Below, piece after piece: positions 1 to 62,760 of a stretch of 64,000 nucleotides of DNA; position 1 is the first letter of the stretch; each line of letters starts with the position of its first letter. Source of the DNA: Subtercola endophyticus. Lineage in GTDB: Bacteria; Actinomycetota; Actinomycetes; Actinomycetales; Microbacteriaceae. The position numbers and the translations under genes were made by a program. The notes under the pieces are model-generated. The model was not told the DNA's origin. It saw nothing but the letters and a program-made list of their open reading frames with translations, and ran no database searches. The stretch covers positions 620,001 to 684,000 of the forward strand of contig NZ_CP087997.1 of assembly GCF_021044565.1 (NCBI RefSeq), written 5' to 3'.

Positions 1-1
1 T

Positions 2-544
2 CTGACGGTTCGCGAGAACGTCGCCGTCGCTGCAAAGCGTGGTGCTCGACGCTCCGGGGCGCAAAGTCATGCCGACCGGGTGCAAGGGGCGATGGATCGG
101 GTCGGCATCGCTGAACATGCTTCTCGTCTTCCGGGCGAGCTGTCTCACGGACAGCGCGTTCTTGTCGGAGTGGCGCGTGCCATCGCCGCCGAACCTCAGG
201 TTGTTCTAATGGATGAACCTGCAGCTGGTCTCGATGATGCGGAGGGCCGGGAACTGGGTCTGTTCATTAGGAAGTTGGCTTCGGAGGGCATGGGCATCCT
301 TCTCGTCGACCACGACATGAATCTCGTGCTCGACGTGTGCGATCGCCTCTACGTGCTCGACTTCGGCCGACTGATCGCTTCGGGATCGCCTCAGGAGATT
401 TCGAACGACCCTGCTGTCATCCGCGCGTATCTAGGCGGAGGAGACGAAGTCGACTCTGCTGATCCTGATGTGGTGACACCAGCCGACATCGCAGATGCCG
501 ATGAGATCGAGCTTGAACCGGTGGACATCGAGGAGGAGAAGTGA
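2..544 (+). CDS. Liv-type ABC transporter ATP-binding protein (LivG-like), 3' part
   Basis: This is the C-terminal part of an ABC ATPase whose start lies before the window; the frame is open from base 2. The visible part has a signature-like LSHGQ, a Walker B segment VVLMDEP, a D-loop AAGLD and an H-loop ending LLVDHD, followed by a TLR-like C-terminal tail (RLIASGSPQEI) typical of the LivG/LivF branch. The last ~35 residues are acidic. The family energises uptake of branched-chain amino acids, amides or aromatic acids. The stop overlaps the GTG of the next ATPase by four bases, so the two are translationally coupled. The substrate cannot be read from an ATPase; the downstream catabolic genes argue against a plain amino-acid importer. 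Confidence 0.9.
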   Translation: MTVRENVAVAAKRGARRSGAQSHADRVQGAMDRVGIAEHASRLPGELSHGQRVLVGVARAIAAEPQVVLMDEPAAGLDDAEGRELGLFIRKLASEGMGILLVDHDMNLVLDVCDRLYVLDFGRLIASGSPQEISNDPAVIRAYLGGGDEVDSADPDVVTPADIADADEIELEPVDIEEEK

Positions 545-1272
545 GCGCGAATTACCAAGCACAGGCTGAACCGCTGCTGCAGGCGACGTCGTTGTCCGTC
601 GGCTATTCGGGCACAGCCGTCGCGCACGATCTGAACCTGTCAATCGGCACGTCAGAGATCGTCTGCCTGCTGGGCCCGAATGGGGCCGGAAAGACCACGA
701 CGTTGCTGACCCTCTCTGGTCTGCTCGAGCCGATAGCTGGTTCCGTCACCCTGCACGGCAACGACCTCAAGGGCGTGCGCCCTGACGTGCGAGCCAGGCG
801 GGGAATCGTTCAAGTGCCGGAAGATCGGTCGTTGTTCGGGTCGCTCACGGTGAAAGAGAATCTTCAGGTCGCTTCGCGCGATGAAAAGGAGCTCGACAGG
901 GTCTATTCGTATTTTCCGAAGCTGCGAGACATCCAGGATCGTCGCGCAACGGTGCTCTCGGGGGGCGAGCAACAGATGCTCGCCCTTGCACGCGCCCTGA
1001 TGCTCAGACCGGAATTGCTCATTGTCGATGAAATGAGTCTGGGACTGGCGCCGATCGTCGTCGAGGCGATCTTGCCTGTTTTCCGTCGTATCGTCGACGA
1101 GACCGGAGCGTCTGTTCTCATGGTCGAGCAGCATGTGCATCTCGCCCTCGAAGTCGCCGATCGGGCATATGTCATGTCGAGGGGCAGGATCATTGCATCC
1201 GGAACGGCCTCCGAGATCTCGGAATCTCTCGACGATCTGCGCGGCGGCTATCTTGGTGTGCAGAGTGACTGA
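541..1272 (+). CDS. Liv-type ABC transporter ATP-binding protein (LivF-like)
   Basis: This complete 243-residue ABC ATPase has Walker A GPNGAGKTT (near residue 46), signature LSGGEQQ (near 140), Walker B LLIVDEMS (near 160) and an H-loop VEQH (near 190). The DEMSLGLAP stretch and the short length are typical of LivF, the second ATPase of branched-chain-type importers. GTG at 541 overlaps the upstream stop (GTGA). Its own stop lies inside the next gene, so transport and catabolism are on one transcript. The permease and binding-protein genes are presumably upstream of the window. Confidence 0.92.
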   Translation: MSANYQAQAEPLLQATSLSVGYSGTAVAHDLNLSIGTSEIVCLLGPNGAGKTTTLLTLSGLLEPIAGSVTLHGNDLKGVRPDVRARRGIVQVPEDRSLFGSLTVKENLQVASRDEKELDRVYSYFPKLRDIQDRRATVLSGGEQQMLALARALMLRPELLIVDEMSLGLAPIVVEAILPVFRRIVDETGASVLMVEQHVHLALEVADRAYVMSRGRIIASGTASEISESLDDLRGGYLGVQSD

Positions 1273-2887
1273 CGTTCGTGAAGCGACCATTCCCGTTGCA
1301 ATAGTGGGAGCGGGGCCGGTCGGTCTCACCCTCGCCGCTCTTCTGTCTGCGCGAGGTGTGAACGCATGTCTCATAGAGCGTCGATCGGGCGCAAGCGACG
1401 AGCCGAAGGCCATCAGCATCGATGACGAGTCGCTGCGCACCTATCAACATGCCGGGTTACTGCCGGAGCTTCTGCGGATTGTCGTGCCGGGCACCGGAAC
1501 CCGGTACTTCGACGCTGACGGCCGACCTCTGTTTCAGGCCGGTGCTGAATTTCCGGGGAGGCTGACGCTGCCGTTCAAGAATCCATTCGCTCAACCAGAT
1601 CTTGAACGCGTGCTGTACAGCGCTGTCGAGAGGGATGACGCGATCCAGCTTCGGCTCGCAACCGAGGTGACGGGCCTCTCTCAAGGGGAGGACGGCGTGC
1701 GGCTGGAGCTACGATCTGACGGCGTAGATCAATCTCTCTGTGCGGCATACGTCGTGGGCGCTGACGGAGGTCGCTCGACCATTCGGGCGGCGGCGGGAAT
1801 CGGTATGACAGGTCGAGCTCTTCGCGATGATTGGCTGGTGGTCGATACTGTCGGCGATACCCACCGCGAACGGCACGGAATGCACTATGGGATTCCCGAG
1901 CGGCCAATGGTAATCGTCCCTGGGCTCGCGGGGCGATGCCGGTACGAATTTCGATTGTTTGCGGGCGAAGGGGTGGCAGGCGAGCGTCCTGAATTCTCAC
2001 TCATCGCCAAGTTGCTCAGCCCACACCGAACAATCCACGAGAACGAAATCGAGCGCGCGGTGGTTTACCGGTTCAACGCATTGAACGCCGACACCTACCG
2101 TTCCGGCCGTCTGATGCTGGCCGGTGACGCGGCGCACATGATGCCGCCCTTTGCAGGGCAAGGCCTCAACTCGGGCATCCGCGACGTCGAGAACCTGGCG
2201 TGGAAGCTCGCCGCTGTCATACAGGGGCAGATGCCAGAGCAGATCCTCGATTCGTATACTGACGAACGTCGCCCTCAGGCCGGAGCAGTCGTTGCCTCGT
2301 CCGCACGTTTGGGTCGAGTCGTTATGAGCACGTCGAGACGCGTAGCCGAACTGCGAGACCGCCGCGTTCGCGCGGCGTTGGTCACAGACGAAGGCCGCGA
2401 CTTTTTCGAGAATATGAGATACCGACCGGCCAATCGTTTCGAGCGGGGACTCCTCATTCCCGGCCAGGGTGTCGGATCGCCATTGGCTCAACCCTGGGTG
2501 TTCGACATGCAGGCCGCAAAGGTGCATCCGTTGGATATCGCTTGCGGACCCGATTGGACTCTCATCGGCGTCGATGTGCAAGCTGAAGAATGGCCGCACG
2601 TCGAAACGGTCCGGGCCGTTAGCCGGGCGCATGCGGTACACGCGGTTCTCGGCGAAGAACTCCCCAGACGCTTGGCCGGCATAGACCTGATAGCCGACCT
2701 CGATGGTTCGCTTCGACGCGAACTTCTGCCTAACGCTGGCAAGTTCATGCTGATCCGCCCCGATCGTGTCATCGCCGCGATTTTCGGGGTGAACGACATC
2801 GCCGGAGTTCACCTCGTCATCGATGATTGGTTTGTCTCTGACCGTGCCATCGATACTCCCTCATCTTCCATCTACCGAGAGGCATAG
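1265..2887 (+). CDS. FAD-dependent aromatic hydroxylase (MhpA/PheA-TfdB type)
   Basis: This is a predicted 540-residue flavoprotein monooxygenase. It has an N-terminal Rossmann motif VAIVGAGPVGLTLA, a middle GADGGRSTIR (DG motif) and a second FAD motif GDAAHMMPPFAGQGLN that also contacts NADPH. The segment EPKAISIDDESLRTYQ resembles the start of 3-(3-hydroxyphenyl)propionate hydroxylase (MhpA). Family members insert one oxygen into phenolic rings. GTG at 1265 is chosen because it gives an 8-base overlap with the upstream stop and places the FAD motif about 10 residues in; an upstream in-frame extension would run through livF-like coding sequence. Ring hydroxylation would be the first step of the encoded pathway. 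The exact substrate is unknown. Confidence 0.88.
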   Translation: MTDVREATIPVAIVGAGPVGLTLAALLSARGVNACLIERRSGASDEPKAISIDDESLRTYQHAGLLPELLRIVVPGTGTRYFDADGRPLFQAGAEFPGRLTLPFKNPFAQPDLERVLYSAVERDDAIQLRLATEVTGLSQGEDGVRLELRSDGVDQSLCAAYVVGADGGRSTIRAAAGIGMTGRALRDDWLVVDTVGDTHRERHGMHYGIPERPMVIVPGLAGRCRYEFRLFAGEGVAGERPEFSLIAKLLSPHRTIHENEIERAVVYRFNALNADTYRSGRLMLAGDAAHMMPPFAGQGLNSGIRDVENLAWKLAAVIQGQMPEQILDSYTDERRPQAGAVVASSARLGRVVMSTSRRVAELRDRRVRAALVTDEGRDFFENMRYRPANRFERGLLIPGQGVGSPLAQPWVFDMQAAKVHPLDIACGPDWTLIGVDVQAEEWPHVETVRAVSRAHAVHAVLGEELPRRLAGIDLIADLDGSLRRELLPNAGKFMLIRPDRVIAAIFGVNDIAGVHLVIDDWFVSDRAIDTPSSSIYREA

Positions 2888-2892
2888 TTCTT

Positions 2893-4281
2893 GTGAGCCA
2901 GCGACTAACAATCGAGGGGTTTTCCGGTCAGGTTCTGCTGCCGGGAGACCCGGAGTACGACGAAGCACGCACCATCTGGAACCGGATGATCGACCGCCGG
3001 CCTGAGATCATCGCGCGGTGCCTCACCGTGACAGACGTCGTCACGGCCGTGAGGTGGGCCCGCGCAGAGGGTGTTCCTCTCACTGTGCGAGGAGGCGGCC
3101 ACAGTATCCCGGGGCACAGCGTCATCGACGACGGCCTCGTCATCGATCTCACGGGCATGAACGCTGTCGAGGTTGATCCCGCCGCGCGTTTGGTGAGGGT
3201 GCAGGGCGGCGCTCTCCTCGGCGACGTCGACCGGGCAACGCAAGAGTTCGGACTCGCGACACCGGCGGGTGCAATCTCACACACCGGGGCAGGTGGACTC
3301 ATTCTCGGTGGCGGGCTGGGGTGGACGATGCGCAAATACGGATTGACCGTCGACAATCTCATCGCCGCGCAGCTTGTCACAGCTGAAGGTGATGTCATCG
3401 TTGCCGATCGGAACGAGCACCAGGACTTGTTCTGGGCTCTGCGCGGTGGAGGAGGGAATTTCGGTGTGGTGACCGAATTCACCTTGAAGCTCCACGAGCG
3501 CGGACCGGTGTATCTCGCAGCGCACGCGTTCGAACTCGAGGATGCTGCCGCCGTGCTTCGTGGGATGCGAGACATCATGCCGACCTCACACGACGATCTC
3601 GTCTGGTCAGCCTTCTTCCGCATGCTCCCCGATTGGGACTGGGCGCCGGCTGGGCGAGTCGGCGATCGAGTTCTGCTTGCGCCTCTTGCCTGGTTGGGTG
3701 ATCACGATGAAGGGCGCGCAGTCATCGACGAATATCTCGCCCATCTCGGCGTCACGCCGCTGGCTCAGTCGCACGGTTCGATTCCTTATGTGGAGTTGCA
3801 AAGCCTCAACGACGATCTGAACGCGCACGGTCACTTCAACTACCACAAGTCGAGCTTCTTGAAACAACTTGACGACGACACAATCGACGTTCTCGTGCGC
3901 CAAGGATCGCGCATCGCGTCGGCCAATTCGCAACTGGAGGTTCTCTCGATGGGCGGAGCAATTGCCCGCATTCCCGAAACTGAGACAGCGTTCGCACACC
4001 GCACAGCGCTCTGGCCAGTGAACGTCTGCGGAATTTGGAAACCGCACGAGGACAGCCAACTGAATAAGGATTGGGTCGTGAACACCTTCAACGAGCTCCG
4101 CCCTCATCTCGGCGATGGGTCTTACCTCAACTTCGGAGGCAGTGATGCGACGGAAGTCGAGTCACATGAGGGATACGGGGACCACTGGCGTCGGCTCCGT
4201 GAGGTGAAGACAGTCTACGATCCGGGCAATATATTCCGGCACAATGCCAACATCCCTCCCCTCAGCGAGGCCGACGCATGA
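2893..4281 (+). CDS. FAD-linked oxidase, berberine-bridge-enzyme-like (6-hydroxynicotine-oxidase type)
   Basis: This is a predicted 462-residue PCMH-type flavoprotein. Near residue 70 it has RGGGHSIPGHS, whose His normally carries the 8-alpha-histidyl FAD bond. The second covalent site (Cys in plant BBEs) is replaced by a SHTGAGGL context, so single covalent attachment, as in 6-hydroxy-D-nicotine oxidase, is expected. FGVVTEF and the C-terminal YDPGNIFRHNANIPP (BBE domain) confirm the family. Such enzymes oxidise alcohols, amines or ring carbons with O2. It starts at GTG 2893, five bases after the hydroxylase stop, and ends by overlapping the next ATG. Confidence 0.9.
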   Translation: MSQRLTIEGFSGQVLLPGDPEYDEARTIWNRMIDRRPEIIARCLTVTDVVTAVRWARAEGVPLTVRGGGHSIPGHSVIDDGLVIDLTGMNAVEVDPAARLVRVQGGALLGDVDRATQEFGLATPAGAISHTGAGGLILGGGLGWTMRKYGLTVDNLIAAQLVTAEGDVIVADRNEHQDLFWALRGGGGNFGVVTEFTLKLHERGPVYLAAHAFELEDAAAVLRGMRDIMPTSHDDLVWSAFFRMLPDWDWAPAGRVGDRVLLAPLAWLGDHDEGRAVIDEYLAHLGVTPLAQSHGSIPYVELQSLNDDLNAHGHFNYHKSSFLKQLDDDTIDVLVRQGSRIASANSQLEVLSMGGAIARIPETETAFAHRTALWPVNVCGIWKPHEDSQLNKDWVVNTFNELRPHLGDGSYLNFGGSDATEVESHEGYGDHWRRLREVKTVYDPGNIFRHNANIPPLSEADA

Positions 4282-5150
4282 AGATCGGGCCCGAAACGAC
4301 TGCATTGGTGACGGGAGGCGACAGCGGCATCGGCTTCGGCATCGCACAAGCTTTCGTGCAGCGCGGGGCACGCGTGGTCATAGCGGGTTTGTCTGAAGAA
4401 GCGCTTGCCGAAGCGGCGAACCAGCTCGGCGGTCGCGTCTCCACGGCGGTCTTGGATATCAGGGATCGCGAAGGCTGGGCCCAGCTGGCAGAGCGGCTGT
4501 GGGCGGACGGTGGTATTGACGTGCTCGTGAACAATGCGGGAGTGGGGTACCTCACGCCCGCTCTTGAAACGAGCTTCGAACAGTGGGACTGGCTCATCGA
4601 CATCGACCTCACCGGAACTTTCAACGGAGTGCGCTCGATCGTCCCACGGATGCTGAGAACCGGGAGCCCAGGCAGAATCGTGTCGACCGCATCGATCGGG
4701 GGACTGCTGGCGGCGCCGGGATCCGTCTACGCTGCGGCCAAGGCCGGAGTCATCGGATTCATGGAAGCTCTGCAAACCGAGCTGTGGGATACGCAGATCG
4801 GCGTAACCATTCTCGTTCCCGGAATCGTGCGTTCGAACATCGCCAACGGGTTGCTGCCCCCCGGCGAATCTCAGGGCGTTCAACCGGGTGGGGCTGGCCT
4901 CGACGTGCTTTACCAAGAGCCGATGGAGCCCAAAGAAGTAGGTGAGCGCGTCATCCGCGCGATTCAGAATGACGCGTTATACGTCGTCACTCACGCCGAA
5001 CACGGCCCACTCCTGCAGCGACGATTTGATGCAATACGTCGCGCGGTGCCGCTCGAGACTCCGCCCGAAGCGAGGGCCGCGGTCGAGCGGATGGTTCTCG
5101 AGCATCCGATCTATGACGCCGTTCGTGCACGAATCGAGGAGGGGGAGTGA
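4278..5150 (+). CDS. Short-chain dehydrogenase/reductase
   Basis: This is a 290-residue classical SDR. The cofactor motif TGGDSGIG is near residue 13, NNAG near 90, and the Ser-Tyr-Lys triad appears as STASIGG followed by YAAAK. The C-terminus is extended (about 40 residues beyond a minimal SDR) and hydrophilic. It would interconvert a hydroxyl and a keto group with NAD(P). ATG 4278 overlaps the upstream TGA by four bases and its own stop overlaps the next SDR, so it is translated as part of the operon. It is unlike SDR 5147-5905 in length and ends, so the pair probably acts on successive intermediates. Confidence 0.92.
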   Translation: MKIGPETTALVTGGDSGIGFGIAQAFVQRGARVVIAGLSEEALAEAANQLGGRVSTAVLDIRDREGWAQLAERLWADGGIDVLVNNAGVGYLTPALETSFEQWDWLIDIDLTGTFNGVRSIVPRMLRTGSPGRIVSTASIGGLLAAPGSVYAAAKAGVIGFMEALQTELWDTQIGVTILVPGIVRSNIANGLLPPGESQGVQPGGAGLDVLYQEPMEPKEVGERVIRAIQNDALYVVTHAEHGPLLQRRFDAIRRAVPLETPPEARAAVERMVLEHPIYDAVRARIEEGE

Positions 5151-5905
5151 GCGAGAGTCTGTTGCGCGATCGAGTCGTATTCGTCACCGGTGCCGGTAGC
5201 GGGATCGGACGCGCGGCAGCCCAACTCTTCGCAGAGGAAGGGGCGGCGATTTTCGCCATCGACCGAGATGAACAGTCGCTGGATCAGGTAGTAGGGCACA
5301 TCGTCTCCGCCGGCGGCCGGGCTGGTGGTCAGGCGTGCGATGTCGCGAGATTGAACGACGTCGCTGACGCCGTGAACGCTGCAGTCTCGAAATTCGGACG
5401 CATTGATGGAGCATTCAACAATGCCGGCATAGCTCCCCCCGCCGTCGACACATCGCTCGTGGATCCACTGCTCTGGCAGAAGGCTTTCGACATCAATGTC
5501 GCCGGAATCTGGCACTGCCTGCGCGCAGAGCTCACGGTTATGGAGCCAGGCGGATCTATCGTCAACACGGCGTCGGTTGCTGGAATGGCGGGATTACCAG
5601 GGTCAGCCCTCTATTCTGCAACGAAGCACGCAGTCGTAGGGCTCACTCGCAGCGTCGCGGCTGAGTATGGGCCACGAGGAATACGAGTGAATGCGATCGC
5701 TCCCGGGCTGACACGCACCGCGATGGTGGCGGCGCTGATCGAGAACGGCGATATGGATCCCGAGGCGTTGGTCGCCCACTCGCCGCTTCGGCGAATGGCC
5801 GAACCTCGTGAGATCGGCGAAGCTGCGTTGTGGTTGCTCAGCAACCGATCCAGCTTCGTGACGGGTCATGTACTAGCAGTAGACGGCGGAGAGTTGGCGG
5901 TATGA
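5147..5905 (+). CDS. Short-chain dehydrogenase/reductase (FabG-like)
   Basis: This is a 252-residue classical SDR with TGAGSGIG at the N-terminus, NNAGIA near residue 90, a catalytic Ser in NTASVAG, YSATK (Tyr/Lys) near 160 and the usual C-terminal VTGHVLAVDGG. A conserved Asp after the second beta strand (AIDRDE) suggests NAD(H) preference. GTG 5147 overlaps the preceding stop by four bases. This is the second dehydrogenase of the catabolic operon. Substrate unknown. Confidence 0.92.
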   Translation: MSESLLRDRVVFVTGAGSGIGRAAAQLFAEEGAAIFAIDRDEQSLDQVVGHIVSAGGRAGGQACDVARLNDVADAVNAAVSKFGRIDGAFNNAGIAPPAVDTSLVDPLLWQKAFDINVAGIWHCLRAELTVMEPGGSIVNTASVAGMAGLPGSALYSATKHAVVGLTRSVAAEYGPRGIRVNAIAPGLTRTAMVAALIENGDMDPEALVAHSPLRRMAEPREIGEAALWLLSNRSSFVTGHVLAVDGGELAV

Positions 5906-5933
5906 GTTCGGATCTGACAGCAAAGGAACAATC

Positions 5934-7607
5934 ATGACAGTCTCAACCGGTGGACAGATGGTAATCAGCACGCTCAAGCGGGCTGGAGTCGACACCGCAT
6001 TCGGTATCAATGGCGCCCACGTCGACAGCATCTATCAGGCTGCGCTCGACGACGGGTTTCGCATCATCGACGTCAGGCACGAAATGAATGCGGGGCACGC
6101 AGCAGAAGGGTATGCCCGCGTACGAGGGGATGTCGGTGTCGCCATTCTTACGGCCGGCGGCGGGTTCACCAACGCCGTGACGTCGATGGCCAACGCGTTC
6201 TTGGATCGAACGCCTGTCGTCTACATAGCCGGTTCCGGACCGCTCTCACTCGACCAGTCGAACGACTTGCAATCGGGTATCGACCAAGTGGCGATGGCAA
6301 GCCCCGTGACGAAGTGGGCCCACCGCGTCACTCGCACGGAACTCATTCCGCGTCTGCTTGCCCAGGCGGTTCGGGTCGCGCGCTCGGCGCCGGCCGGGCC
6401 CGTGCTCCTCGACATTCCCTGGGACGTTCTCAGAGAGTCCGTGGAATTGCCTGAAGACGTGAACCGGCTGAACCTGGATGGTCACGGGGCAGCTGCACCG
6501 TCGTCGCTCGATGACATCGAGCGACGCATCCGTTCTGCGGAGCGCCCGGTCGCGCTCATCGGCAAACCATTCGCTGCCGACTCCGACCGCGCGGCCTTAC
6601 ATCGTTTTGCCGAGCGAAGCGGAGTGCCGTTAGTCTCCGATTACGACGGTCTCGGAGCGATTCTCGGCACGCCCCAGGGCATCGGGTTGGTGCAGATCCT
6701 GGCTACACTCCCTTCTGACGAGAAGCCAGACCTCATCATCATGCTCGGGGTGCGCTTCGGACTGACCACCGCACTCACATCGGGCACGCTGATTCCGCAC
6801 GGGATCCAGATCGTGCAGATCGATTCGTCAGGAGCGGAACTTGGTCGCCTAGAAACCGTCGCCCTCGCCATCCAAGCAGACCCAGGGGCAACCGTATCCG
6901 CCTTGGCCGAGCGATTCGAGCGGCCCAGCGCCCCATCGACGTGGACGCAACGGCTATCCCGCGTGGCCGAAGAGCGCACCGCGGCCGTTATGGCTGAAAA
7001 AGTGCCAGGAGATCGGATTCACCCTCTCGACGCAGTTACCGCCATTGCCACATCGTTGCCGAGTGGGTCGACCGTGGTCGCAGATGGTGCCCTCACCTAT
7101 CTCTGGCTTTCTGAGACGATAGCGAAGAGCAACGTTGCGCACTATCTCTGCCACGGATATCTCGGATCGATGGGCGTCGGCATGGGCACCGCACTCGGTG
7201 CTCAGAGCGCGCGACCGGGTGAAATCACGGTATTGGTCACCGGTGACGGAGCGGTCGGCTACAGCCTGGCGGAATTCGACACGATGGTTCGTGCCGAACT
7301 TCCCGTCGTCGTCATTGTGCTCAACAACCGGGCGTGGGGTGCGACCTGGCACGCCCAAGAAATCGTACTCGGGCGAGATCGAGTGACGAACAATGCCCTG
7401 TCTAACGGGTCATACAGTGCCGTCGCGCGCGCGCTCGGCGCCGATGGTTATGAGGTCACCCGCTTGAACGAGCTGGCCGATGCGATCACGAAAGCGATAG
7501 CGGCGGGGCGCCCGGCCTGCATAGACGTGCAGGTGGATCTCGACCCCATACCTCCGGAGGAGAAGGTGCTGATGGGCGGTCTTCCGTTTGGCGCCGGGGA
7601 GGCGTGA
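5934..7607 (+). CDS. Thiamine-diphosphate-dependent enzyme, acetolactate-synthase superfamily
   Basis: This 557-residue protein has the three-domain ThDP architecture. The N-terminal Pyr domain carries the cofactor-activating Glu in RHEMNAGHAAEGYAR (near residue 45). A middle domain resembles the FAD/ADP-binding domain of AHAS. The C-terminal PP domain has the GDG...NN motif (GDGAVGYSLAEFD then VLNNRAWG). These enzymes make or cleave C-C bonds next to a carbonyl (decarboxylase, lyase, ring-opening hydrolase). No regulatory subunit gene is nearby, so biosynthetic AHAS is unlikely. AAAGGA precedes ATG 5934 at good spacing. In this operon it is the best candidate for C-C cleavage after hydroxylation and dehydrogenation. 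Confidence 0.88.
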   Translation: MTVSTGGQMVISTLKRAGVDTAFGINGAHVDSIYQAALDDGFRIIDVRHEMNAGHAAEGYARVRGDVGVAILTAGGGFTNAVTSMANAFLDRTPVVYIAGSGPLSLDQSNDLQSGIDQVAMASPVTKWAHRVTRTELIPRLLAQAVRVARSAPAGPVLLDIPWDVLRESVELPEDVNRLNLDGHGAAAPSSLDDIERRIRSAERPVALIGKPFAADSDRAALHRFAERSGVPLVSDYDGLGAILGTPQGIGLVQILATLPSDEKPDLIIMLGVRFGLTTALTSGTLIPHGIQIVQIDSSGAELGRLETVALAIQADPGATVSALAERFERPSAPSTWTQRLSRVAEERTAAVMAEKVPGDRIHPLDAVTAIATSLPSGSTVVADGALTYLWLSETIAKSNVAHYLCHGYLGSMGVGMGTALGAQSARPGEITVLVTGDGAVGYSLAEFDTMVRAELPVVVIVLNNRAWGATWHAQEIVLGRDRVTNNALSNGSYSAVARALGADGYEVTRLNELADAITKAIAAGRPACIDVQVDLDPIPPEEKVLMGGLPFGAGEA

Positions 7608-7609
7608 TC

Positions 7610-8113
7610 ATGGAATTTGGGTTTGGGCAGCCGGATGACTCCATTATTCAAATCGCCTTCGTCGTTGAAGATCTCGACGTGGCGATGCGTGAGTTCAGTT
7701 CCCGCTTGGGTGTAGGGCCCTGGACCGTGATGCGCGATTTTGCGGGGGAGAACCCCAGATATCACGGATTACCTACTGAGGCCCGCGCAAACGTCGCCCT
7801 CGGATTCGGTGGACGCATGCAGTATGAGCTTATCCAGCCGCTCGACGATCTACCCTCCGTTCATCGTGACGTCATCGAGGAGAGGGGCTATGGGTTTCAT
7901 CATTTCGGATACGCTCGGCCTGACTTCGATGCGAGCGTGGCACACATGCGCGCCCAAGGCTACGAACCGGTTTTCGAAGCTCGGGTAGGTGGCGATGGGA
8001 GAGTGGCTTATTTCGATACCCGTGACGTTCTCCCCGGAATGGTTGAGTTCATAGAGGCGGGACAAGCCTTAGATACCGACTTCACGGCGATGTATCTCGC
8101 CGCGCGGCATTGA
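7610..8113 (+). CDS. VOC (glyoxalase/bleomycin resistance) superfamily protein
   Basis: About 167 residues form two beta-alpha-beta-beta-beta units resembling methylmalonyl-CoA epimerase-like VOC enzymes. Probable metal ligands are Glu in MQYELIQPL, His in YGFHHFGY and Glu in GMVEFIE. The usual first-strand His is replaced (IIQIAFVVEDLD), with Gln or none as ligand. Two starts are possible. GTG 7604 overlaps the upstream stop, but GGGGAGG (7596-7602) sits seven bases before ATG 7610, which I prefer. It is the last gene of the operon; epimerase, isomerase or ring-cleavage roles are all possible. Confidence 0.82.
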   Translation: MEFGFGQPDDSIIQIAFVVEDLDVAMREFSSRLGVGPWTVMRDFAGENPRYHGLPTEARANVALGFGGRMQYELIQPLDDLPSVHRDVIEERGYGFHHFGYARPDFDASVAHMRAQGYEPVFEARVGGDGRVAYFDTRDVLPGMVEFIEAGQALDTDFTAMYLAARH

Positions 8114-11386: not shown

Positions 11387-11402
11387 CGCAGCACGCACTA
11401 GC
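11381..11402. repeat. 15-bp minisatellite, left part (interrupted by the IS)
   Basis: One full CACTAGCGCAGCACG unit plus the first seven bases of a second lie at the end of the small membrane gene, whose TAG is inside the unit. The array resumes at 12517 after the insertion sequence. The last six bases (ACTAGC, 11397-11402) are the left copy of the target duplication. Confidence 0.88.
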
Positions 11403-12390
11403 TGTACTGCTCAGGGAGGTTGGTTAACCGGCTGATGGGTGGGTGGCTTCCGATGGCGGTGTGGGGTCTGTGGTGATTGTATTCATGGAGCCATGCGGGG
11501 AGGGCGTTTCGGCGCGCGGTTTCGGTGGGGTAGAACCGTTTGTAGGCCCACCCGTCGGCGAGGGTGCGGTGGAATCGTTCGATCTTCCCGTTCGTTTGGG
11601 GCCGGTACGGCCGGGTCTTTTTCGGTGTGATCCCGAGTTCCGCGCAGGTATCGCGCCAGAGATGCGACTTGTACGCTGACCCGTTGTCGGAGAGCACTCG
11701 TTGCACAGTGACGCCGCGGACGGCGAACCAGGACACCGCCCGCTGCAGCACGGCCACGGCGGTGGCGGCGGTTTCATCGGCGTGGATCTCGGCGTACGCG
11801 ACCCGGGAGTGGTCATCGATCACGGTGTGCACGAACTCTTTCCCCGGCCGGGGTTCATAACGAGCATCTCTGACAATCCCGACGGTAGCGGCCCGGTTCC
11901 GGCGACCTTGCTGCCGGCCAACGTATCGGTGCCCGCCCCCGTCAGGAATGTTGCCGAACTTCGTGACATCGACGTGGATCAACGAGCCCGGAGTGTCATG
12001 TTCGTAGCGGCGGACGACCTCACCGGTGTGTTTATCGATGTAGCCGAGCCGGTTCAGCCGACACCGCACGAGAACGGCGTGCACTGTTGATGCTGGCATC
12101 CCGAGCTTCGCGCCGATCGCGACCGGGCCCAGGCGCTGCTTCCACCGCAGATGCCCAATTTTCCGCACGAGCTGCTGCCGGGTCCTGGTTGGGCTGTAGT
12201 GCGGGCGAGAAGAACGATCCACGACACCCGCTGCGCCCATCGCCGCGTATCTGTCGGCCCAACGCTTCGCCGTAGGCCAGGAAACATTGAATTGCGCCGC
12301 GGCATGAGCGACGGGCCAGCCGTCATCGATTATCAGGCGCGCGATGCGGAGACGGTGACGTGGGGTGAGAGCTGCGTTAGCGTGAGACAC
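11398..12390 (-). CDS. IS481-family transposase (DDE integrase core)
   Basis: This 330-residue transposase has an N-terminal helix-turn-helix (AHAAAQFNVSWPTAKRW near residue 30) and a DDE core: Asp in LIHVDVTKFG, Asp in VLSDNGSAY and Glu in TNGKIERFH, with 35 residues between the last two. GTG 12390 is preferred over the frame's upper limit (12468) because AAAGGG lies just upstream. The frame runs past the left end of the element: the final Ser codon straddles the IS edge and the TAG stop comes from flanking target DNA, so the C-terminus depends on the insertion site. Confidence 0.93.
   Translation of the reverse strand: MSHANAALTPRHRLRIARLIIDDGWPVAHAAAQFNVSWPTAKRWADRYAAMGAAGVVDRSSRPHYSPTRTRQQLVRKIGHLRWKQRLGPVAIGAKLGMPASTVHAVLVRCRLNRLGYIDKHTGEVVRRYEHDTPGSLIHVDVTKFGNIPDGGGHRYVGRQQGRRNRAATVGIVRDARYEPRPGKEFVHTVIDDHSRVAYAEIHADETAATAVAVLQRAVSWFAVRGVTVQRVLSDNGSAYKSHLWRDTCAELGITPKKTRPYRPQTNGKIERFHRTLADGWAYKRFYPTETARRNALPAWLHEYNHHRPHTAIGSHPPISRLTNLPEQYS
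11403..11425 (+). repeat. IS left terminal inverted repeat
   Basis: This is a 23-bp arm identical to the complement of 12494-12516. It covers the 3' end of the transposase reading frame. Confidence 0.95.
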
Positions 12391-12493
12391 GAGGGCCCTT
12401 TCAGGTCGGTAAGTGGTTGACTGAGCAACTCCACTTTCGCCCCGGGGGCCCTCACCCCATTCCAACAACTACAGCGAGTCGTCACACCGAATC

Positions 12494-61701: not shown

Positions 61702-61818
61702 CACCCCCGGCTGCCCGGGCTAGGGGCCAAGGCCGCGTGTTTTCAACCGCTGCCGTGTACGGCGAGTTATGCACAGAAGGGCGTTCGCGGGCATCCGCGG
61801 CCCGAGTGGCGGGGCACG

Positions 61819-62760
61819 ATGAACGACATGGACGTTCCATCGACAATCGTGCGCTTTGGCGGAGTCGCCGACTATGCGGCACTCGCCACGGCAGGCGCTT
61901 CTCGCCTGCACGTGCGGCGCGCTCTCGATAGTGGCGCGGTGTTCCGCGTACGAAACGGGTGGTTCGCCGTGCCGGGGGCGGCGGAGGAACTCGTGGCGGC
62001 GGTTCGCGTGGGTGGCACTCTCTCGTGCGTCTCGGCCCTGCGTCGAGCAGGCATCTGGTGTCTCGATGACACACTTCTTCATGTGTGCGTCGACCGTCAT
62101 GCTCCGTACGTCGCGTCGCCGAGACACCGGCGAACCCCTCTGGGTGCTCCGAGCGCGCACGCGGTCGCGCTGCACCGCGGCCATCGTCATCGGGGCGACA
62201 CTCCGACACCGGCGTGCGAGACACCCGCCGTCGCTCTCGCGCACCTGTTCGCGTGTCGGCCTCGAGCGGAGGTCGTCGCTTCCCTCGACTCGGCGCTGAA
62301 CAAGAAGCTCGTCACAGCGCACGAAGTGTGTCAGCTCGTGGATGCTCTGCCCCAGAAATACGCCCCGTATCTCTTGGCCGTCGATGCTTCGGCGCAATCG
62401 GGCACCGAGACCTTTGTGCGGTTGCAGCTGCGCCGACTAAGAATCGCGTTTCGCACCCAGGTAGCGATCGAAGGCGTCGGGCGCGTCGACTTCGTCGTCG
62501 GGCAGCGCTTCGTCGTCGAAGCCGACAGCACCGCGTGGCACGCGGGTTATGCTGCATTCGCAGAAGATCGTCGCCGAGACCTTGAGCTTCACACGCTCGG
62601 CTACATCGTGCTGCGGCTGAGCTACTGGCAGGTGATCGACCACCTCGACGATGTCGTGGCTGTCATTCGTGGCGTCGTGGCGCGCGGTGAGCATCTCTGG
62701 GCCGCGCGCCACCGTCATCGAGGGTTGGGTCTCGCCTCGACGAATGGCGGGGATCGGTGA
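61819..62760 (+). CDS. AbiEi-like wHTH plus DUF559 (Vsr-like nuclease fold) protein
   Basis: This 313-residue protein has an N-terminal winged-helix segment like the AbiEi antitoxin domain (YAALATAGASRLHVRRALDS then FRVRNGWFAV). A middle region follows, then a C-terminal DUF559 domain: RLQLRRLRIAFRTQVAIEG, VDFVVGQRFVVEADS and LELHTLGYIVLRLSY, a restriction-endonuclease-like core with the D..E.D pattern. It is common in multiple copies in Microbacteriaceae with role unproven. ATG 61819 is chosen because the longer frame runs back into microsatellite DNA. No toxin gene is adjacent. Confidence 0.85.
   Translation: MNDMDVPSTIVRFGGVADYAALATAGASRLHVRRALDSGAVFRVRNGWFAVPGAAEELVAAVRVGGTLSCVSALRRAGIWCLDDTLLHVCVDRHAPYVASPRHRRTPLGAPSAHAVALHRGHRHRGDTPTPACETPAVALAHLFACRPRAEVVASLDSALNKKLVTAHEVCQLVDALPQKYAPYLLAVDASAQSGTETFVRLQLRRLRIAFRTQVAIEGVGRVDFVVGQRFVVEADSTAWHAGYAAFAEDRRRDLELHTLGYIVLRLSYWQVIDHLDDVVAVIRGVVARGEHLWAARHRHRGLGLASTNGGDR

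Follow-up and report, generated by a model that had tools for sequence, protein, structure and literature searches.

What does a bacterium break down with a Liv-type importer, an aromatic-ring hydroxylase, a flavin oxidase, two short-chain dehydrogenases (SDRs), a thiamine-diphosphate-dependent (ThDP) enzyme and a VOC protein, and which of these enzymes, if any, opens the ring? The question is raised by the start of a 64,000-nucleotide stretch of the Subtercola endophyticus genome (the window; G000:C1:620001-684000, in a genome that is a single contig of 4.32 Mb, window position 1 being genome position 620001), where eight such genes lie tightly packed on one strand at 1-8113. The run belongs to a larger cluster, of which it forms the downstream part, and we judge, with a little more belief than doubt, that the cluster uses a benzaldehyde lyase (BAL)-type enzyme to split a C-C bond in the side chain of an aromatic hydroxyketone of plant type and then opens the ring in the ordinary extradiol manner. 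The genes of the run are as follows (window coordinates).

1-544, plus strand: LivG, ATP-binding component of a Liv-type importer, with its 5' end before the window (Pfam BCA_ABC_TP_C, ABC_tran)
541-1272, plus strand: LivF, second importer ATP-binding protein (Pfam ABC_tran; 71% to the LivF of G036, a genome of another genus in the same family)
1265-2887, plus strand: FMO, FAD-dependent aromatic-ring hydroxylase, MhpA-like (Pfam FAD_binding_3, 233 bits)
2893-4281, plus strand: BBE, EncM-like flavin oxidase (Pfam FAD_binding_4, BBE; EncM 404 bits)
4278-5150, plus strand: SDR1, short-chain dehydrogenase (Pfam adh_short)
5147-5905, plus strand: SDR2, short-chain dehydrogenase (Pfam adh_short_C2)
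5934-7607, plus strand: ThDP enzyme, BAL clade (607 bits to 3d7k)
7604-8113, plus strand: VOC protein, methylmalonyl-CoA-epimerase fold (Pfam Glyoxalase_4; predicted model and fold match)

Five of the seven junctions are overlaps, of 4 bases at LivG/LivF, BBE/SDR1, SDR1/SDR2 and ThDP/VOC and of 8 bases at LivF/FMO, where FMO starts on a GTG at 1265; the remaining two are gaps of 5 bases (FMO/BBE) and 28 bases (SDR2/ThDP). LivG is truncated by the window start and likely begins at an ATG at genome 619723 (window -277). The original prediction, made from the letters of the window, had read these co-directional, almost unspaced genes as one catabolic operon acting on a phenolic or alicyclic ring; the operon and an aromatic substrate are supported, with every family it named found in Pfam and the families themselves pointing to an aromatic substrate class.

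The ThDP enzyme gives the cluster its probable chemistry. Its best matches in the PDB are 8y8m (a ThDP protein, 677 bits), BAL itself (3d7k, 607 bits) and the formolases (591-595 bits), the next family following at 200 bits, and it falls in the BAL clade, which is separate from the acetolactate synthases and the remaining ThDP enzymes of decarboxylase type. In a HMMER alignment to 3d7k, residues A28, H29, E50, Q113, W163, Y397, G419 and A480, which we take to be the BAL active site, are all identical. The label of acetolactate synthase was tried and dropped (293 bits against a cut-off of 587, far under the BAL match). An enzyme able to cleave a C-C bond next to a carbonyl, as had been suggested for this gene, is thus supported as the kind of enzyme that the BAL clade would predict. 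BAL of Rhodococcus erythropolis R138 (ReBAL) is reported to cleave (R)-benzoin reversibly (PMC9557007), and BAL and most such enzymes are described as R-selective in PMC10155308. A BAL-clade protein encoded on the R138 plasmid pLRE138 is 60% identical to our ThDP enzyme, and it is likely that this protein and ReBAL are one and the same. In the literature searched, we found no described catabolic gene cluster for benzaldehyde lyase.

On pLRE138 (L046, 10156-41671), the neighbours of the BAL-type gene include formaldehyde-assimilation, Rieske, P450, dioxygenase and maleylacetate reductase genes, as would suit the breakdown of methoxylated aromatics of lignin type.

The original prediction had also held that the locus lacks a ring-cleavage dioxygenase, and had assigned ring opening to the ThDP or VOC enzyme. 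This part does not stand. The following genes precede the window (genome coordinates).

606530-608119, minus strand: CCO, carotenoid-cleavage-type oxygenase
608125-609414, minus strand: PucR regulator
609518-611146, plus strand: ALDH1, aldehyde dehydrogenase
611253-612752, plus strand: ALDH2, aldehyde dehydrogenase
612835-613656, minus strand: FAH-family hydrolase
613659-614588, minus strand: EDO, two-domain VOC extradiol dioxygenase, 309 aa
614779-615567, plus strand: IclR regulator
615751-616263 (L006 3751-4263), plus strand: 170-aa protein, NCBIfam PRK00872 (hypothetical protein), below cut-off
616342-617649, plus strand: Liv-type binding protein
617718-619730, plus strand: LivHM, fused permease

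The EDO gene lies about 5.4 kb before the window and, with the FAH gene, is divergent from the operon; in G036 both stand in the same run as FMO. EDO matches the HpaD, catechol 2,3-dioxygenase and BphC models, all far under their equivalog cut-offs, as well as PDB 3b59. It has the two VOC domains of a type I extradiol dioxygenase, and H157, H199, H214, H246 and E265 are kept in 3/3 sequences; we take these five to be the residues that bind iron or act in catalysis in type I enzymes, with H157, H214 and E265 presumably forming the 2-His-1-Glu iron site. With an EDO in the cluster, neither the ThDP enzyme nor the VOC protein is needed to open the ring. The best NCBIfam match of FMO is PRK06183.1-5 (420 bits, below the cut-off of 546), and its relatives at 50-54% adjoin either EDO and FAH genes or FAH and a small VOC protein, VOC_A2. 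The PRK00872-like protein, which sits between the IclR regulator and the importer genes, was not found in any other cluster compared.

Judging from its counterpart in G036, CCO probably starts at Met47. It keeps H216, H263, H329 and H509 in 7/7 sequences, presumably the iron site of the carotenoid-cleavage family. In lignostilbene dioxygenase, Phe-59, Tyr-101 and Lys-134 hold the 4-hydroxyphenyl ring (PMC8191317). An alignment to 5j53 places W107 and F149 (both in 7/7 sequences) and F184 (Y in G036) in CCO where these phenol-holding residues would be, and we rejected lignostilbene dioxygenase proper as its identity; with those residues missing, a para-hydroxystilbene is not the favoured substrate. 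Plasmid searches gave no EDO match at E 1e-60 and no CCO match at E 1e-100.

From the gene families, gene content and order, their recurrence and modularity in other genomes and the island that holds them, we propose the following series of reactions. The Liv-type importer would take up the aromatic compound, and SDR1 and SDR2 (with the EncM-like oxidase in this lineage) would turn a side-chain alcohol into an alpha-hydroxyketone of the acyloin or benzoin type. The VOC protein would interconvert the enantiomers or isomers of this hydroxyketone by way of an enediolate, making all of it available to an R-selective lyase, and the BAL-type enzyme would then split it into two aldehydes. CCO would provide a second entry, cleaving the matching alkene to the same kind of aldehydes. 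The aldehyde dehydrogenases would convert these to acids, after which FMO would hydroxylate the phenolic ring, EDO would cleave it and the FAH protein would hydrolyse the product, with the IclR and PucR proteins as probable regulators of the cluster. The order of the steps from side-chain oxidation to lyase cleavage and the role of the VOC protein are the least certain parts of this scheme.

The VOC protein is proposed as a hydroxyketone epimerase or isomerase on the strength of its fold and of four invariant residues. The best PDB fold for its predicted model (pLDDT 87.5, built from 18 sequences) is 3gm5, followed by methylmalonyl-CoA epimerases. Q16, E75, H100 and E148 are invariant in 18/18 sequences and align with Q, E, H and E of 3gm5, and may well bind a metal. 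Human glyoxalase I carries a Q-E-H-E zinc set and moves a proton in an alpha-hydroxycarbonyl via an enediolate; methylmalonyl-CoA epimerase, by contrast, has what we take to be an H-Q-H-E ligand set, and the VOC protein scores 26 bits on the equivalog model of that enzyme, whose cut-off is 115. For BBE, the original prediction had suggested a 6-hydroxynicotine-oxidase-like flavoenzyme. The match to the covalent-flavin family stands, with H70 in a GGGHS motif as the likely covalent flavin site by our assumption, but 6-hydroxy-D-nicotine oxidase comes second (181 bits), EncM is closer (404 bits), and the nicotine oxidase label was rejected.

To follow the gene set beyond this genome, we used a pattern-based scan of one genome per species (84,980 species), which gave 25 loci and, after exclusion of L045 (29% identity), 24 loci from 22 genomes; L056 is the region of L027 and was counted once, both being kept in the lyase tree. 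Among the 24 are L041, which ends with its contig, L043 and L044, with a partial or broken lyase, and three loci of one S. griseoruber genome. Five loci, all from Streptomyces (L034, L035, L036, L041 and L042), hold a set like that of the source genome, which we call type A. All five have FMO with the small VOC_A2 in the EDO position together with ALDH2-CCO-SDR1-SDR2-ThDP; IclR and FAH are present in 4/5 (the contig of L042 stops just past FMO), as are VOC and a Liv importer (that of L041 stops inside the lyase gene). G036 completes the group: there, PucR and CCO (80%) are found with IclR on the other strand, FMO-EDO-FAH-BBE-SDR1-SDR2-ThDP-VOC form one run, and the Liv genes, binding protein and ALDH2 follow on the opposite strand. 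The type A core set is thus held by seven genomes (the source genome, G036 and the five Streptomyces), and in the six other clusters SDR1 is found at 56-57% and SDR2 at 55-58%. Recurrence and the upstream genes had been offered as a check on the original prediction; the set does recur and its upper pathway is unfamiliar, while its lower pathway is of a known kind. That no published pathway has this gene set, as the prediction also held, agrees with the literature searched, most subscription papers lying outside it.

Among the 19 other loci, 14 (type B) have an intradiol dioxygenase and a maleylacetate-reductase-like protein (a name taken from the R138 annotation) near the lyase, and 11 of these 14 also have a Rieske oxygenase within the flanking DNA that was retrieved. 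A tree of the lyases places type B together with R138 as a single branch nested inside type A. Across all 24 BAL-like loci, a VOC gene lies directly downstream of the lyase in 16 and an SDR gene within about 2 kb of it in 20; none of ten ThDP-paralogue loci has a VOC or SDR partner, in flanks of only 1.5 kb. Of 59 sampled relatives, G036 alone has the BAL-clade lyase (11 belong to the same genus, where the best match reaches E 5e-49 at about 30% identity), and of 394 genomes sampled across the class, four have a BAL-clade lyase at E 1e-100 (the source genome, one at 61% and two at 39%), two have EDO (E 1e-80) and two have CCO (E 1e-150), the source genome being included each time.

Partial sets in two genomes show how the cluster may be divided. 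G301 has IclR and FMO-EDO-FAH without CCO or lyase, and in G246, IclR-FAH-FMO-VOC_A2 and ALDH2-CCO lie next to a transporter that looks MFS-like by eye, while SDR1-SDR2-ThDP-VOC is missing from the locus and a BAL-clade lyase from the whole genome. Acyloin cleavage is thus an add-on, separable from ring opening and alkene cleavage, which can also be told apart from each other; this separability is our main ground for reading CCO and the BAL-type enzyme as two entries to one lower pathway. A bolder reading, which we put forward tentatively and with more doubt than belief, is that SDR1-SDR2-BAL-VOC is a portable acyloin-cleavage cassette, in which an oxygen-free aryl-hydroxyketone lyase is fed its usable enantiomer by a new VOC racemase or isomerase, that it plugs into different ring-opening pathways, and that this is the natural role of actinobacterial benzaldehyde lyases.

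Further loci deserve mention beside these. VOC_A2 is a single-domain protein of 164 aa found beside FMO and FAH (L034 4067-4561; also L035, L036, L041, L042 and G246), and it may be a small ring-cleaving dioxygenase. The BAL-type gene is partial or fragmented in L043 and L044, from two Streptomyces. On a Variovorax paradoxus plasmid (L047, 11989-20039), genes for an SDR and a complete Liv-type importer come after a ThDP enzyme of 38% identity, so that a betaproteobacterium has a cluster of like composition, though more distant. On a plasmid of R. erythropolis BG43 (L048, 5782-13281), a ThDP enzyme of 36% identity accompanies FMO, aldehyde dehydrogenase, SDR and FAH genes, again a comparable set around a distant lyase.

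Several observations weigh against side-chain cleavage followed by extradiol ring opening as the function of the whole cluster. At two pocket positions the lyase departs from BAL, with A474 in place of F484 and W472 in place of L482. EDO and BBE occur together in two of the seven type A clusters only, those of the source genome and G036, and the Streptomyces clusters carry the small VOC protein where EDO would stand, their Liv genes being only 36-40% alike and not necessarily orthologous. No VOC gene stands beside the lyase in 8 of the 24 loci (L028, L029, L037, L038, L040, L043, L044 and, at its contig end, L041), and the pLRE138 lyase likewise has no adjacent VOC gene, its nearest SDR being 26% alike and about 2.9 kb away. 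The 24 loci themselves rest on a pattern-limited scan and 22 genomes, one of which, that of S. griseoruber, contributes three.

Of the other explanations, the most serious, although unlikely in our estimation, is a flavonoid or stilbenoid A-ring pathway, where FMO would first hydroxylate a resorcinol-like ring while the molecule is still intact, this ring would then be removed by the ring cleaver and FAH, and the ThDP, SDR and VOC enzymes would process only what is left. The pairing of FMO with a VOC-type ring cleaver resembles FdeE/FdeC and IfcA/IfcB, by which the A-ring of naringenin and of isoflavones is hydroxylated and cleaved (PMC11069340), and both the FMO-EDO-FAH set without a side-chain module in G301 and the small VOC protein beside FMO and FAH in Streptomyces would suit such a route. 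The ifc set, however, includes cupins (IfcD1/D2), none of which were seen among the genes scanned here, and in G246 the ring module is accompanied by CCO and an aldehyde dehydrogenase, which points to cleavage before ring opening. Less probable still is that the ThDP enzyme works as a carboligase, capturing, for example, toxic aldehydes or formaldehyde from other steps. BAL is reversible (PMC9557007), a BAL-derived formolase, which joins formaldehyde (PMC11089019), is among the closest PDB chains, and the R138 plasmid has formaldehyde-assimilation genes near the lyase; yet formolases were designed, from BAL and another enzyme (PMC11089019), the aldehyde dehydrogenases of the cluster are available to remove aldehydes, and no methoxy-group-removing enzyme was found in the source-genome cluster.

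We give very little credence to the view with which the analysis began, in which ring opening would fall to the ThDP or the VOC enzyme, much as cyclohexane-1,2-dione hydrolase works. In its favour, cyclic diketones can be opened by ThDP enzymes of this superfamily, and two SDRs and an oxidase are present. Against this, the same cluster encodes an FAH hydrolase and an extradiol dioxygenase with two domains, BAL is the nearest solved relative, with no cyclohexanedione hydrolase named among the best 60 of 149 PDB matches, and G246 and G301 have ring-opening genes but no ThDP-VOC cassette with them. It was rejected on the presence of EDO and FAH and on the closeness of BAL within those 60 matches.

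The cluster is probably transferred DNA, as the original prediction had supposed from its lower G+C content. The counts bear this out: positions 7621-7680 have 30 of 60 G+C, as had been counted, 61780-62000 reach 70%, and the run at 1-8113 has 61.3%, under all 170 same-length windows sampled between genome 633458 and 684000 (64.9-69.2%). The run is part of a probable 34-kb island (599502-633457) of 61.2% G+C, against 67.2% to its right and 65.4% to its left. The closest same-genus genome by two flanking genes (G006; 97% and 95%) matches the source up to 599501 and again from 633458; inside the island the two genomes have in common just an 83-bp piece at 603015 and, around the HNH gene, two pieces at 629309-630867. 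A tRNA-Leu gene at 599335-599409 marks the left edge, and a tyrosine recombinase is encoded at 602909-604000. No exact repeat of at least 14 bases from the tRNA-Leu region was found within 99 kb, so the right edge is set by comparison only. Tallied as signs of an island, the tRNA edge, integrase, deviant G+C and absence from a close relative were thus seen, and a flanking att repeat was not found. IS481-type transposase genes flank the catabolic genes inside the 34 kb (genome 605453-606421 and window 11398-12468). In G006 (L084), some 10 kb of other DNA fills the space from the same tRNA-Leu to the counterpart of the gene at window 13458, and the site looks like an integration hotspot.

Set beside known systems, the lower pathway is of a familiar kind and the upper pathway is not. 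The fde and ifc pathways have in common with this cluster an FMO and a VOC-type ring cleaver, as described in PMC11069340; the cluster differs in its CCO and BAL module and in that no cupin was seen here. EncM, the enterocin flavin oxygenase, is the closest solved relative of BBE, which stands here in a catabolic setting, with no polyketide synthase among the genes scanned. The VOC fold is common to methylmalonyl-CoA epimerase, glyoxalase I and the VOC protein, whose genomic partner, unlike that of the epimerase, is a lyase. The lignostilbene dioxygenase routes for lignin dimers in SYK-6 and Novosphingobium likewise use a CCO-family oxygenase and SDRs as the entry to aryl aldehydes (PMC12997858); the BAL cassette is added here, thiamine and benzoin being absent from the text of that review, and if our proposal is true it would set an oxygen-independent side-chain-splitting step beside that route, useful for the breakdown of lignin-type dimers. 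The closest comparison remains BAL itself, from P. fluorescens and as ReBAL. The likeness extends over the full-length sequence and the active-site residues save the two pocket positions, and the difference is one of setting: a close relative of a familiar biocatalyst, with lyase activity predicted, appears here in a dedicated catabolic cluster with SDRs, a VOC protein, CCO and ring-opening genes. By predicting the partners of BAL (SDRs, an epimerase-fold VOC protein and an importer) together with a substrate class, the cluster makes its natural role testable.

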